Below are positions 41,196 to 49,301 of a DNA stretch of 64,000 nt, piece after piece; positions within the stretch are counted from its first letter, which is position 1, and every line of letters begins with the position of its first letter. A model generated the notes under the pieces. That model saw only the letters and a program-made list of their open reading frames with translations. It had not been told where the DNA came from and ran no database searches. This stretch comes from Candidatus Eremiobacterota bacterium (GTDB taxonomy: Bacteria > Vulcanimicrobiota > CADAWZ01 > Ess09-12): assembly GCA_031082125.1 (NCBI GenBank), contig JAVHLM010000004.1:62001-126000 (forward strand), written 5' to 3'. Position numbers and translations under genes: made by a program.

Positions 41196-43043
41196 CTATA
41201 ATACCGAGATGGCGCAGCGAAAGCCCGTATATATATTGGAGAAGCTCGGGAGAATCCTCTCCCGCGACGTGCAGCGGCACTCCCTCTTGGCACTTTTCCA
41301 GCTCCCCCCCCTTATGGCGATTATCTCGGCTTTTTGCGGCGAAGGCCCCTTGTACGGGTAGCCGGAGATATTATCAAGCGTCAGCTCCCACACATTGCCC
41401 AGCATGTCGTGGCAGCCGAAAGGAGAGACACCACGGAGATATGAACCCACAGCTGTGGTTCCCCTGGCTCCCGAAAGGGTACAATTGAGCCTGTTGTAAC
41501 GCCACTCGTCTCCCCATGGATATTTTCTGCCGTCAACACCCCTTGCCGCCTTTTCCCATTCGGCCTCTGTGGGGAGCCTCTTCCCTGCCCAGGCGGCATA
41601 GGCGCAGGCATCATGCCATGAGACGTTCACCACCGGGTGATTGGAGAGGCGCTCACTCATGATATCCCTGTTCTTGAAGGGGTAACGGGTCTCCTCCAGG
41701 AATAGAAGAAACTGCTTCACCGTGACGGGAAACTTGTCAATATAGTAGGTCCCCACGGTGACCGAATGGCTCGGCCTTTCATAGAAATAAGACTCATCGT
41801 CAAGAGCCGCTCCCATCATGAAGGCTCCCCCGGGTATGAGGACCATCCGGGACTGATCACGGCCGAGGGTGCATTCCACTGATTTCTGCTGAGTCTTGGG
41901 GCCCGTGGTGAAAATATGCCTCGACGACCCTTCAGAGATTGCGGGAGGAGCTTCGTCAATTTCAATCTTTTTTCGCGCCTCGTTGTCAGACATGGTGCTT
42001 TTCAGCTCAATTCTCGGGGAGGCTCCCTGAGAGGGGGGGGGCTCTGAGGAAAGAGCGGACGCAGGCTGAGGTGGGGAAGAGGGCGGGGAAGGGGCGCCTG
42101 GGAACATGCTCGTGGCGGAGCTGATAATCTGGAGGGCGATGGACTGGGCTCCGCCCTGGCCGCCGATGGTGAGGTAATCCTTCAGCTCCCTGGCGCTCCC
42201 GAATCTCTCGTCCATATTCAGGGCAATGAGCCTGTTCACCATGGTGACGGCCTTGTCGGAGATATCGGGCTTTTTCTTCCTCATCGGGGTGAAGTTATAA
42301 GGAACTTCCTTGGAGGGATCGATTCCTGTAAGGAGCTGGTAAAGGGTGACGCCCAGGGAGAAAAGATCAGACCGGGGCTCCGGGTGCCCCTTGTAGTGCT
42401 CAGGGGCGATAAATCCCAGTGTGCCTATTCTCGTGCCCGTTCCCACTGGGGAAAAGAGCTTGGCAATACCAAAGTCAATCAGCATGAGCTTCCCGTCGGT
42501 TTTGAAGATTATGTTTGAAGGCTTGATATCGCGGTGGATCACGGGAGGATTCTGGATGTGGAGGTGCTCGAGTATGTCGGCTATCTCGCAACCCCATTTC
42601 ATGACGGTGCTCTCAGGGAAGAGTCCTCCGGGCTGCTCACCGAGGAGATCCTCCAGGTTCTTTCCCTCGATGTATTCTAGCACCAGGTAATATCTGCCCG
42701 AGTGGATGAAGTAGTCCCAGACCACGGGGATGCCGGGGTGGCGGAGGCTCGAAAGTATCTGCATCTCCCTCTCAAACCACTCGGAGAATTTCTCCTGCAT
42801 CTCCTCGTTGTCGTAAGGCTCGATCATCTCCTTCACTGCGCAGATCCTTTTTCCCAGCCTCTGGTCCTCGGCCTTGTAGACATTCGCCATGCCTCCCTTC
42901 TTGATATGGGAGACGATCCTGTAACGCCGGTCCAGGACGGTGTTGACGGCCTGGCAGAGTGAATCAAGCACGCCTCCGCAGTTGTGGCAGAAGTTTGCCG
43001 CGGTCCTGTTGGTTTTCTGGCAGAAGGGACAGAGCTTGCTCAT
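41196..43043 (-). CDS. Ser/Thr protein kinase with zinc ribbon and C-terminal FGE-sulfatase domain
   Basis: The 615-residue product has the same architecture as the kinase at 16988-19033: an N-terminal zinc ribbon (CPFCQ, CHNCG), a Hanks-type kinase (GGMANVY, CAVKEM, HRDIKPSN near 168, DFG), a Pro/Ser-rich linker (about 308-350) and an FGE-sulfatase domain from about 398 (PTEAEWEKAARG, MLGNVWEL, RGGSW). The second FGE active-site cysteine is kept (ECRC) but the first is not, so enzyme activity is doubtful. No membrane segment. The ATG at 43043 has only AGGCG before it, so the start is less certain. Confidence 0.88.
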   Translation of the reverse strand: MSKLCPFCQKTNRTAANFCHNCGGVLDSLCQAVNTVLDRRYRIVSHIKKGGMANVYKAEDQRLGKRICAVKEMIEPYDNEEMQEKFSEWFEREMQILSSLRHPGIPVVWDYFIHSGRYYLVLEYIEGKNLEDLLGEQPGGLFPESTVMKWGCEIADILEHLHIQNPPVIHRDIKPSNIIFKTDGKLMLIDFGIAKLFSPVGTGTRIGTLGFIAPEHYKGHPEPRSDLFSLGVTLYQLLTGIDPSKEVPYNFTPMRKKKPDISDKAVTMVNRLIALNMDERFGSARELKDYLTIGGQGGAQSIALQIISSATSMFPGAPSPPSSPPQPASALSSEPPPSQGASPRIELKSTMSDNEARKKIEIDEAPPAISEGSSRHIFTTGPKTQQKSVECTLGRDQSRMVLIPGGAFMMGAALDDESYFYERPSHSVTVGTYYIDKFPVTVKQFLLFLEETRYPFKNRDIMSERLSNHPVVNVSWHDACAYAAWAGKRLPTEAEWEKAARGVDGRKYPWGDEWRYNRLNCTLSGARGTTAVGSYLRGVSPFGCHDMLGNVWELTLDNISGYPYKGPSPQKAEIIAIRGGSWKSAKRECRCTSRERILPSFSNIYTGFRCAISVL

Positions 43044-43104
43044 GGTGTGGCGCCTGTGGAATCTTCTTTCTGCAGCAAAGCCGAACTTCCCTTTGGCGGG
43101 AATT

Positions 43105-43133
43105 AAAAAAGGAGGGGGACTGGCCCCCTCCTT
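43105..43133 (-). terminator. Rho-independent terminator of groEL
   Basis: A 10-bp stem (AAGGAGGGGG / CCCCCTCCTT, 43109-43133) with a 5-base loop is followed on the minus strand by TTTTTT (43110-43105). It lies just past the groEL stop codon. Confidence 0.9.
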
Positions 43134-43143
43134 AAAGAGGATC

Positions 43144-45134
<1,991 letters not shown>

Positions 45135-45153: not shown

Positions 45154-45180
45154 TTAGCAGTTAAATCACTTGATTGCTAA
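45154..45180 (-). promoter_or_regulatory. CIRCE-like operator (proximal)
   Basis: Inverted repeat with 9-base arms and a 9-base spacer: TTAGCAGTT (45154-45162), AAATCACTT, GATTGCTAA (45172-45180). The layout is that of the HrcA operator CIRCE (TTAGCACTC-N9-GAGTGCTAA), with substitutions in positions 7-9 of the arms. It overlaps the predicted transcription start of groES, where repression is expected. Confidence 0.75.
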
Positions 45181-45185
45181 AATCA

Positions 45186-45214
45186 TTTGTAATCTATTTT
45201 CGCATGAATTGCAA
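45186..45214 (-). promoter_or_regulatory. groESL promoter
   Basis: On the minus strand, TTGCAA (45214-45209) and TACAAA (45191-45186) are separated by 17 bases, directly upstream of the proximal CIRCE-like element. Confidence 0.5.
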
Positions 45215-45283
45215 CATTCAGAATTCCCTCTTTTTCTAATGAAATCTCTCTAAAGATGCATCATTTGCCAGTTAATGAAGCTT

Positions 45284-45310
45284 TTAGCAATCATGGTAAA
45301 TAATTGCTAA
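45284..45310 (-). promoter_or_regulatory. CIRCE-like operator (distal)
   Basis: A second inverted repeat, TTAGCAATC (45284-45292), ATGGTAAAT, AATTGCTAA (45302-45310), has the same 9-9-9 geometry and almost the same arm sequence as the proximal site. Its centre is 130 bases from the first. It lies upstream of the promoter and also next to the 3' end of the kinase gene at 45372. Confidence 0.65.
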
Positions 45311-45371: not shown

Positions 45372-46856
45372 TCAGCGGTAAGCGGGCTCGATGAGACCCT
45401 GCACCGAATCATACTGGGGGAAGTCCGGGCCGCACATTATTTCCTTGTGAAATGAGCCCCTGCAATAGATGGTATAGGCGTCTCTTCCGGCGTTGAGCAT
45501 GTAGCTCTCCCTGTAGGTGTCCCTCCCGGCAGAGGGGCAGGTGGGAATTATTTTAAGGTACATGGGGGTGACCTTTTCAATGGTAAGGGGGTACAGCTTG
45601 TCATTATCAGAGGCGTACATCTCAAGAGCAGTCCCTATATTCTTGACGTTGCTCTTGCAGCCCGTGAGCTGGCCGGAGGAGCGGGCCCGCATGATATTGG
45701 GAATGATTACAAGGGCGGGAAGGCCTATGATGAGGGTGATCCCCACCAGGACCTTGGCAGCCTCCCGGGCCGAATCAGAATCAGCTCTCACCAGCGAGGA
45801 AACCAGGGCGCAAAGAGAGAGAAACCACAGAACCAGGATGCCGATGACTCCGGCTATCAGGAAAAAGGGCCCCACGTAAGGAACGCACCCCATCATCAAG
45901 AACATTATAAAGATTACCATTGCGGTCCATGGACTTGAGATGAAGGGGATGATCTTCTGCGGCGCCGTGGTTGTCACAGGCGCTGAGACCGGTGGGAGAG
46001 GAGCCTGGGGGGACGGGGCAGCCTGAGGGGAAGGCGGCGAAACGGTGCTGCCCTTATGGGCTTCTATATACTGCTTCAGGGATGCGGCGCTCTGGAAGCG
46101 TTTGTCCGCGTCATTCTCCAGCAGGCGCGAGAGAAGGCCGGCAAACCAGGGGGGAGCTCCGGCGGCATAGGCGTTGACGGGCGGCACGTTAAAGACGAAC
46201 TGCTCGAGATCCTCGCCTGTCACGAGGAAATAGGCCGTCGCCCCCAGGGAGTAAAGATCGCTCCTGCTGTCAGTCTGCTTCTTCCCATACTGCTCTGGAG
46301 CTGAAAATCCTGGTGTCCCCATCACGAAGGTATCACGCACCTTTTCGGGGGCGAAGTGCCTCGCGATCCCGAAATCAATGAGCTTGGCCCTGCCCCTGGT
46401 GGTGATCATTATATTTGAGGGCTTGAGATCCCTGAATATCACCGGCGGGATCTGGGAGTGGAGGTACTGCAGGATATCGTTGATCTGAATGATCCAGGGG
46501 AGGACCTCATCAACCTCAAAGGGCCTCCCCCTTTTTACAAGACGGGCCTGGAGGCTTTCGCCCTCCACATATTCCATGACCAGACAGTGTCCGCGGTCAG
46601 TGGCGAAATGGTCAATCACCTTGGGAAGCCCGGGATGGTTGAGAGATTTCAGTATCCCGCACTCCTGCTCAAACATGGCAAGGGCATCGTGCTGCTCCGC
46701 GGGATCCAGGAGGGTGCTGAGAATCTCCTTGAGGGCCCACCGCGCGCCAGGCTGCGCCAGATCGTCCACCAGATAGACAGTGCTCATCGCACCTTTCCCA
46801 AGAACACTGACAATTCGGTATCTTTCCGATACCACTGTGCCGGCATCAAGCTCCAT
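45372..46856 (-). CDS. Membrane Ser/Thr protein kinase with C-terminal pilin-like domain
   Basis: The 494-residue product has a cytosolic kinase (about 10-270; GKGAMSTVY, ALKEIL, FRDLKPSN near 140, DFG), a Pro/Ser-rich linker, three or four hydrophobic segments (about 308-395) and a final domain of about 90 residues resembling a pseudopilin (ARSSGQLTGCKSNVKN then IGTALEMYASDNDKLYP). The His of the HRD motif is Phe, as in the kinase at 48333. The last membrane helix directly precedes the pilin-like domain in the way a pilin N-helix does, but there is no prepilin leader. I chose the ATG at 46856; the GTG at 46892 has no ribosome site. Confidence 0.8.
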   Translation of the reverse strand: MELDAGTVVSERYRIVSVLGKGAMSTVYLVDDLAQPGARWALKEILSTLLDPAEQHDALAMFEQECGILKSLNHPGLPKVIDHFATDRGHCLVMEYVEGESLQARLVKRGRPFEVDEVLPWIIQINDILQYLHSQIPPVIFRDLKPSNIMITTRGRAKLIDFGIARHFAPEKVRDTFVMGTPGFSAPEQYGKKQTDSRSDLYSLGATAYFLVTGEDLEQFVFNVPPVNAYAAGAPPWFAGLLSRLLENDADKRFQSAASLKQYIEAHKGSTVSPPSPQAAPSPQAPLPPVSAPVTTTAPQKIIPFISSPWTAMVIFIMFLMMGCVPYVGPFFLIAGVIGILVLWFLSLCALVSSLVRADSDSAREAAKVLVGITLIIGLPALVIIPNIMRARSSGQLTGCKSNVKNIGTALEMYASDNDKLYPLTIEKVTPMYLKIIPTCPSAGRDTYRESYMLNAGRDAYTIYCRGSFHKEIMCGPDFPQYDSVQGLIEPAYR

Positions 46857-46975
46857 GCTCTCGCATTCCCTTCCCTCAGAGATCTTCCCCACTGAGCATG
46901 TTCATCAGGAAAGGGATGAATCCTCCGCGGGAACCTGATATTGATGAAGTGAACCGGTAGATCCCCCATGAAAAA

Positions 46976-48332: not shown

Positions 48333-49301
48333 ATGGCAGTACAACCAGGTTCGGTATTGAACGGGCGCTACCAGGTGATGAGAGTCCTTGGCGAGGGAGG
48401 AATGGCCCGGGTATATGAAGCGCAGGATCTCTCGTCAGCACGGCGCTGTGCCATCAAGGAGATGGAAGACAGCTTCCAGGACGAGGAGCTGAGGGCATGC
48501 GCCATTACGCAGTTCAGAGGGGAGATCACCCTGCTCTTGGGCCTCTCCCATCCAAACATCCCGAGAGTCACCGATTACTTTTCCCATCAAGCAAGCTATT
48601 TCATGGTCATGGACTTCATCGAGGGCAAGGACCTGGACAAGCTTCTCAAAGAGAGGGGTGCCCCCTTTCCCGAGAAAACCATCATGCAGTGGGGCATTGA
48701 GCTGTGCAGGGTCCTGTTCTACCTGCACATCCAGAAGCCGCCCGTCATTTTCAGAGATCTCAAGCCCAGCAACATCATTCTCTCCGCCCGGGGGACCCTG
48801 GTGCTCGTTGACTTCGGCATTGCCCGCATATTCAAGGCCCATAAGCGGGGCGACACTTTCCATATGGGCACTGAGGGCTATGCGGCTCCCGAGCAGTATC
48901 TGGAAAACCGCCAGAGCGACGGCAGGACTGATATTTACGCCCTCGGTGCAACGCTCTATCACCTGGCAACGGGACAGTCGCCTCTTTTCCAATTTCCGCA
49001 CCTGCGGGACCTCTCGCCCGACATTGCGGCAATCCTCAGGAAAGCAACGGACCTTGACCCTGATGACCGCTTCTCCTCTGCAAAGGAGATGAGGATTGCC
49101 CTGGAAAAAGCCTGCGGCATCTCCCCTGACAGGAGGCGCCCGGCCATCGCCATGGCCGCTCCTTCTTCCACATCCACGGACAAGACATCGTATATGATAG
49201 AACGGTCCTCACCAAAAGAGGCGGTGAAATACTGCGACAAGTGCGGGGCTCAGATAAGGGCGAAAAGCCGTTTCTGCAACAGGTGCGGCGCCCGGGCCTG
49301 A
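48333..49301 (+). CDS. Soluble Ser/Thr protein kinase with C-terminal zinc ribbon
   Basis: The 322-residue product has a Hanks-type kinase domain (about 10-260; GEGGMARVY, CAIKEM, FRDLKPSN near 140, DFG) and ends in a zinc ribbon (CDKCGAQ, CNRCGAR). The catalytic-loop His is Phe, as in the kinase-pilin protein at 45372. The ribbon is at the C-terminus, the reverse of the two FGE kinases. The ATG has AAGGT upstream. It converges on the histidine-kinase gene with 7 bases between stops. Confidence 0.9.
   Translation: MAVQPGSVLNGRYQVMRVLGEGGMARVYEAQDLSSARRCAIKEMEDSFQDEELRACAITQFRGEITLLLGLSHPNIPRVTDYFSHQASYFMVMDFIEGKDLDKLLKERGAPFPEKTIMQWGIELCRVLFYLHIQKPPVIFRDLKPSNIILSARGTLVLVDFGIARIFKAHKRGDTFHMGTEGYAAPEQYLENRQSDGRTDIYALGATLYHLATGQSPLFQFPHLRDLSPDIAAILRKATDLDPDDRFSSAKEMRIALEKACGISPDRRRPAIAMAAPSSTSTDKTSYMIERSSPKEAVKYCDKCGAQIRAKSRFCNRCGARA

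Follow-up and report, generated by a model that had tools for sequence, protein, structure and literature searches.

The window analysed here, a 64,000-nucleotide stretch of a Candidatus Eremiobacterota genome, contains a groESL operon preceded by two 27-base inverted repeats that, judged from their sequence and from the presence of hrcA in the genome, are almost certainly operators of HrcA. Taken as a whole, this is a lineage variant of the known HrcA/CIRCE system, whose HrcA offers a candidate specificity residue open to testing. The operon lies on the minus strand and comprises groES (44832..45134, assigned by NCBIfam GroES models) and groEL (43144..44796, TIGR02348 GroEL, 848 bits). Both repeats have 9-9-9 geometry and TTAGCAAT-type arms, referred to below as A-type. 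The proximal operator, site A (45154..45180, minus strand), reads TTAGCAGTT-AAATCACTT-GATTGCTAA in the window and TTAGCAATC-N9-AACTGCTAA on the groES strand, where it lies 19 bp before the groES ATG; its two arms match each other in 7 of 9 positions. The distal operator, site B (45284..45310, minus strand), reads TTAGCAATC-ATGGTAAAT-AATTGCTAA, or TTAGCAATT-N9-GATTGCTAA on the groES strand; its arms agree at 8 of 9 positions, and it precedes the inferred -35 hexamer by ~70 bp. The sites are 130 bp apart from start to start, with 103 bp in between, and site B begins 61 bp past the stop of the upstream neighbor, a protein kinase gene (45372..46892, minus strand; PF00069) whose product has a C terminus that looks pilin-like by eye and which is outside the operator system. 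The initial annotation had described two variant CIRCE sites 130 bases apart before groESL, the distal one near the 3' end of the kinase-pilin gene, and this description holds in each respect.

The CIRCE consensus, as given in excerpts of two reports, is TTAGCACTC-N9-GAGTGCTAA (PMC545781, PMC3842655). Sites A and B share with it the 9-bp arms and 9-bp spacer, the core TTAGCA/TGCTAA, the position before groESL, a proximal copy at the inferred transcription start, and an hrcA in the genome. They differ from it in the absence of the consensus C at position 7, which is replaced by A on three arms and by G on one arm of site A, in the presence of two copies 130 bp apart, and in the lack of a site at the hrcA/dnaK operon. 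The letter at position 7 was not taken as defining CIRCE because it varies among the sites of many HrcA-bearing genomes. When scored against TTAGCANT/ANTGCTAA, each site reaches 14 of 14; the runner-up in the window has a score of 10, and the maximum in 50 Markov-1 random windows is 12. The exact core, TTAGCA-N15-TGCTAA, has four matches in the genome (7.43 Mb, 69 contigs), all of them before the two groESL operons, and a reversed-pattern control gives 0, so that an origin of the repeats by chance, or their use by a different regulator, is very improbable. With one mismatch allowed, there are five sites genome-wide versus five in the control. Because all exact sites stand there and none is near the hrcA operon, the regulon predicted from exact sites consists of the two groESL operons.

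The initial annotation placed a promoter between the two sites, with one copy on the start of transcription. By eye, a sigma-70-type promoter, TTGCAA-N17-TACAAA, can be read at 45186..45214 (minus strand), with TTGCAA at 45214-45209, 17 nucleotides, TACAAA at 45191-45186, and then 5 nucleotides to site A. It would be weak; a consensus promoter scan of the window did not have it among its matches. Better matches are found at the same place in four relatives (G001, G002, G004, and G010), of the form TTGACA-16/17-TAAAAT (TTGACA-16-TAAAAT in G001 and G002, TTGACA-17-TAAAAT in G010), and the proximal site starts a few bases past a -10-like hexamer in the order and in neighboring families. On this reading, the putative transcription start would lie within the proximal operator. 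HrcA footprints cover the transcription start at the groES and hrcA promoters of Campylobacter jejuni, according to the portion of that report available (PMC7464140).

Contig C17 carries the other exact pair, at 72083 and 72212 with a spacing of 129 bp, in front of another groES-groEL operon whose products are paralogs of those in the window (GroES, 65 of 100 residues identical; GroEL, 486 of 553 aligned columns). These two sites are of the same type as A and B and bear on the demand of the initial annotation that other copies should exist near heat-shock genes. A-type sites precede groES in all four relatives from the same order (G001-G004); G003 carries a pair at 131 bp, and the other three have a single site. 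The distal operator of the window has counterparts at the second groESL (L004 1501-1527) and in G003. The stretch between the operators is 103 bp in the window, 102 bp in C17, and 104 bp in G003. An alignment of the window and C17 stretches scores 24, no better than shuffles (31.9 +/- 7.1); C17 and G003 score 58, above most shuffles (32.9 +/- 8.1). The ATG likewise lies at varying distances from the proximal site (46, 48, and 77). Because the window and C17 inter-site sequences align only at shuffle level and the ATG distance is variable, it is the spacing that has been kept within the order, at 129, 130, and 131 bp in three operons of two families, and not the sequence. Pairs in three more distant families are spaced by 137 (G008), 135 (G010), and 153 bp (G013), and paired CIRCE at other spacings are common among the genomes examined. 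Helical phasing was considered as proof of looping and set aside: 129-131 bp corresponds to ~12.3-12.5 turns at 10.5 bp/turn and 135 and 137 bp to ~13, so that the phase varies across families.

The genome has one hrcA (G000:C3), the gene that the initial annotation had proposed to look for. Its product matches the equivalog model TIGR00331 over its full length with 302 bits (cut-off 197.2) and PF01628 with 208 bits. The locus has the order hrcA, thermosome-like chaperonin, grpE, dnaK, and dnaJ, and no CIRCE with one mismatch or fewer was found there in the genome-wide scan, the best local score in that locus (L007) being 10 of 14. The annotation had expected TTAGCAAT-type sites near dnaK/grpE, which is not borne out, and had tied its reading to an hrcA in the genome and to further copies near heat-shock genes; hrcA and the second groESL pair exist, though there are none at dnaK/grpE. 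The chaperonin gene of this locus (L007 9518-11059), present in addition to the two groESL operons elsewhere, is thermosome/CCT-like (group II/III), as indicated by Pfam Cpn60_TCP1 and by thermosome models as the top NCBIfam matches, below their cut-offs. The adjoining grpE (L007 11145-12362) encodes a GrpE of 405 amino acids with ~235 residues ahead of the GrpE domain.

The HrcA sequence differs from most others in the wing, where the second residue after His in the motif PHTS(A/S)GR is usually Ser. The window's HrcA has PHAASGR, and this residue, number 67 here, aligns with Ser74 of the 1stz chain. The recognition helix, which was also considered as the site of change, has the sequence SATVRNEMARLE, ordinary among the HrcAs compared. 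Ala or Val at the wing residue is found in the window's order (G000-G003), in Dehalococcoidia, in a clade of Bacilli, and in a clade that we take to be on the Desulfobacterota side, the assumed placement of the phylum of G158. The initial set comprised G000-G003, six Dehalococcoidia, and four Bacilli, all with A-type operators, to which five genomes of Deltaproteobacteria (Syntrophus and others), all with Val, were added. The true out-of-sample test is the Desulfobacterota-side clade, as the other three belonged to the set that suggested the residue.

Later samples were drawn with position 7 of the operator left free. (i) In the phylum of G158, 59 genomes were drawn evenly and 30 had sites, with HrcA in 28 of 29 searched; among 29 HrcAs scored, G158 included, two have Val and A-type sites only, and 27 have Ser and at least one C arm each. 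(ii) The phylum of G232, sampled with 71 genomes of which 55 had sites, gave, among 30 HrcAs scored, two Ala without C and 28 Ser, 23 of them with C; the Chloroflexota rows are non-random, consisting of every genome with a non-C or mixed arm among the matches listed, except G295 and G327, near-duplicates of G286, plus C-type ones (30 of 55 with a match), with G232 added. (iii) In Bacilli (60 genomes, 50 HrcAs read, 32 with their own sites, counting only sites within the hrcA stretch), there are two Ala without C and 30 Ser, all with C. (iv) In the window's own phylum, 32 HrcAs were read out of 125 genomes with HrcA and 19 were scored, giving four Ala/Val without C and 15 Ser, 12 with C. In the pooled set of 110 HrcAs with exact operators, a C arm occurs with 0 of 10 Ala/Val and 92 of 100 Ser (Fisher 9e-10, the rows being related), and the wing column ranks first of all HrcA columns tested for a link to C at position 7. 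Summed over the four samples, the arm letters are 31 A, 6 G, 1 T, and 0 C for Ala/Val HrcAs and 225 C, 46 G, 23 A, and 2 T for Ser HrcAs. The pool excludes 31 of 141 HrcAs that had no operator matching TTAGCANT-N11-ANTGCTAA in the sequence searched, the distal site of G008, which does not fit this pattern, and the fragment L302; G193 and G284 have sites and no HrcA match. Drift toward AT was rejected as the cause, because GC differs weakly (medians 0.497 versus 0.427, p 0.07) and the wing rule is followed in each of three GC strata.

A-type arms are not confined to these clades. The pattern TTAGCAAT-N11-ATTGCTAA occurs in at least 116 stretches of GTDB contigs; among the matches listed, 65 of 116 stretches contain a heat-shock gene, and a groES, hrcA, dnaK, or dnaJ start follows within 600 bp downstream of 52 of 119 sites, whereas random positions drawn in these stretches give 12.3 on average and at most 21. 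They are found in Dehalococcoidia, Clostridia, Bacilli, Patescibacteria, Elusimicrobia, Leptospiraceae, Chlamydiae, Acidobacteria, and others; the A-type arm is a recurrent form of CIRCE in many phyla and is not unique to the window's genome. The site tables published for Geobacter and Desulfovibrio (Table 8) have the C form in the part of that report available (PMC545781). HrcAs with Ser occur with A-type sites in Patescibacteria, Clostridia, Elusimicrobia, Leptospiraceae, Chlamydiae, Acidobacteria, and Ureaplasma, and in a set chosen for A-type arms, Ser is kept in 29 of 39 HrcAs and in 16 of the 21 reached through handles. A-type arms alone were therefore rejected as a sign of an altered HrcA. 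Because Ser HrcAs occur with A-type sites, and eight of 100 have no C arm (mostly G-type), Ala or Val is not needed for the change of arm: it goes with the absence of C and is not required for the A-type. The altered HrcA specificity that the initial annotation raised as a possibility has support from the correlation between Ala/Val in the wing and operators without C at position 7, but it does not follow from the arms alone, A-type CIRCE also serving many HrcAs with Ser.

In a tree of HrcA built without the wing columns, Ala/Val was gained four times and the no-C trait changed seven times. An independent-pairs sign test has four pairs, which cannot reach significance (p 0.125-0.5), and the small number of independent gains is a limit on the statistics. 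All four gains fall on branches that end in no-C nodes, which make up 14.5% of the tree length, giving a rough chance of 4e-4, with each branch assigned the state of its terminal node. For three gains the wing and the operator trait change on a single branch, whereas Dehalococcoidia lost C before gaining Ala/Val.

In an AlphaFold model of a Dehalococcoidia HrcA (locus L111; mean pLDDT 85.5), residues 42-54 form the recognition helix and residues 58-59 and 67-69 the two wing strands; the wing residue, number 64, is in the loop that connects these strands. A Foldseek search with the HrcA model gave 1stz as the top PDB match, followed, as judged from titles only, by IclR-family regulators including TtgV with DNA. 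HrcA and CIRCE are among the most widely conserved repressor-operator pairs, yet 1stz was the only PDB sequence match to HrcA at E 0.001. Neither the PDB sequence search nor Foldseek found a structure of HrcA with DNA, and we know of none. The wing loop may read base 7 from the minor groove, plausibly with Ser at a G.C pair and Ala/Val at an A.T pair. Whether the wing residue contributes to the base 7 preference we regard as evenly balanced. A more specific proposal is tentative, with the chances somewhat against it: that this one residue (Ser74 of 1stz as aligned) is a switch of base 7 specificity (Ser, G.C; Ala/Val, A.T), flipped on four or more occasions, one of them in the window's order, where it would have become fixed with a jointly acting operator pair at a kept 130 bp.

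The overall explanation that we favor, and consider probable, is that a single HrcA acts on two operators and that arms and wing have changed together. Both repeats would serve as operators for the one HrcA of the genome. HrcA bound to the proximal site would cover the transcription start and block groESL; heat or unfolded protein would draw GroEL away, leaving HrcA inactive and the promoter free, as is established for Bacillus subtilis. The distal site, held ~130 bp away, would act as an auxiliary operator and strengthen repression, possibly through a bridge between two HrcA dimers. In the window's order the arms would have gone from TTAGCACTC to TTAGCAAT(C/T), with the wing changing alongside from Ser to Ala or Val. 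That the distal site adds to repression is moderately probable; the kept spacing permits the cooperative or looped repression suggested in the initial annotation, but looping as its mode of action is doubtful.

Two other readings were weighed. If HrcA reads TTAGCA/TGCTAA only, bases 7-9 would drift and the wing change would be a lineage marker unlinked to base 7. The consensus from ChIP-seq of Waddlia HrcA, TAGCA-N15-TGCTAA with bases 7-9 open in the part of the report available (PMC4989314), is in line with such degeneracy, as are the C, G, A, and mixed arms found with Ser HrcAs and the few independent gains of Ala/Val. It is nevertheless rather unlikely, in view of the strong C bias of Ser HrcA arms against the absence of C in all 10 Ala/Val HrcAs, the first rank of the wing column among those tested, and the agreement of the Desulfobacterota-side sample. 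The other reading is that the two operators are independent, the distal one serving a separate upstream promoter or blocking read-through from the upstream gene without a loop. Distal sites just past the upstream gene, as in the window and in C17 (there after a hairpin that looks terminator-like by eye), a TATAAT just before the distal site in G008, and the frequency of pairs at other spacings make this a possibility to be taken seriously, if not the expected one, since the window is GC-rich just before the distal site and has no promoter-like sequence there, and the spacing is 129-131 bp in three operons of two families.

Genomes lacking HrcA were rejected as a control: a site without any HrcA match occurs in G004, G017, G064-G066, G070, G075, and G079, the coupling being imperfect and the genomes partly incomplete. 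Thirteen other genomes (G134-G146; families f14, f15, and part of f16), four of them assigned by elimination, have neither an HrcA over the cut-off nor exact CIRCE cores and appear to have lost the system; several are of 7-8 Mb, and they carry one to three copies of groES.

No report of an HrcA wing residue tied to the operator, or of looping by HrcA, was found in the open-access literature searched, and no priority is claimed. With a residue that tracks one operator base, the way in which HrcA reads CIRCE could be tested directly by a single mutation. Searches for HrcA regulons could use the right arm letters in lineages missed by the textbook consensus TTAGCACTC.

Tandem CIRCE are described, in the portions of the reports available, at Lactobacillus plantarum hrcA (PMC3842655) and at dnaK and clpB of Spiroplasma melliferum (PMC5138195). 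The window shares with the tandem sites of lactic acid bacteria, Clostridia, and Mollicutes the presence of two CIRCE in one promoter region. In contrast to the 129-131 bp before groESL found here, pairs in the Clostridia and Bacilli examined (e.g. L046 4394, L062 4337, and L101 3105) are mostly 43-53 bp apart before hrcA, and many have TTGACA or its complement in the 9-bp spacer of one copy, so that operator and -35 hexamer coincide. In family f12 (e.g. L168 and L247), the regions upstream of groES contain two CIRCE-like sites 37-40 bp apart that depart from the consensus, with arms of the CTTGCACTC / (G/C)TCTGCTAA and CTGGCACTC types. In the window, several eukaryote-like Ser/Thr kinases surround groESL (45372-46892, 41196-43241, and 48333-49301), among which, by eye, one each has a transmembrane segment with the pilin-like C terminus, an apparent sulfatase-modifying-factor-like domain, and a zinc-ribbon-like tail.
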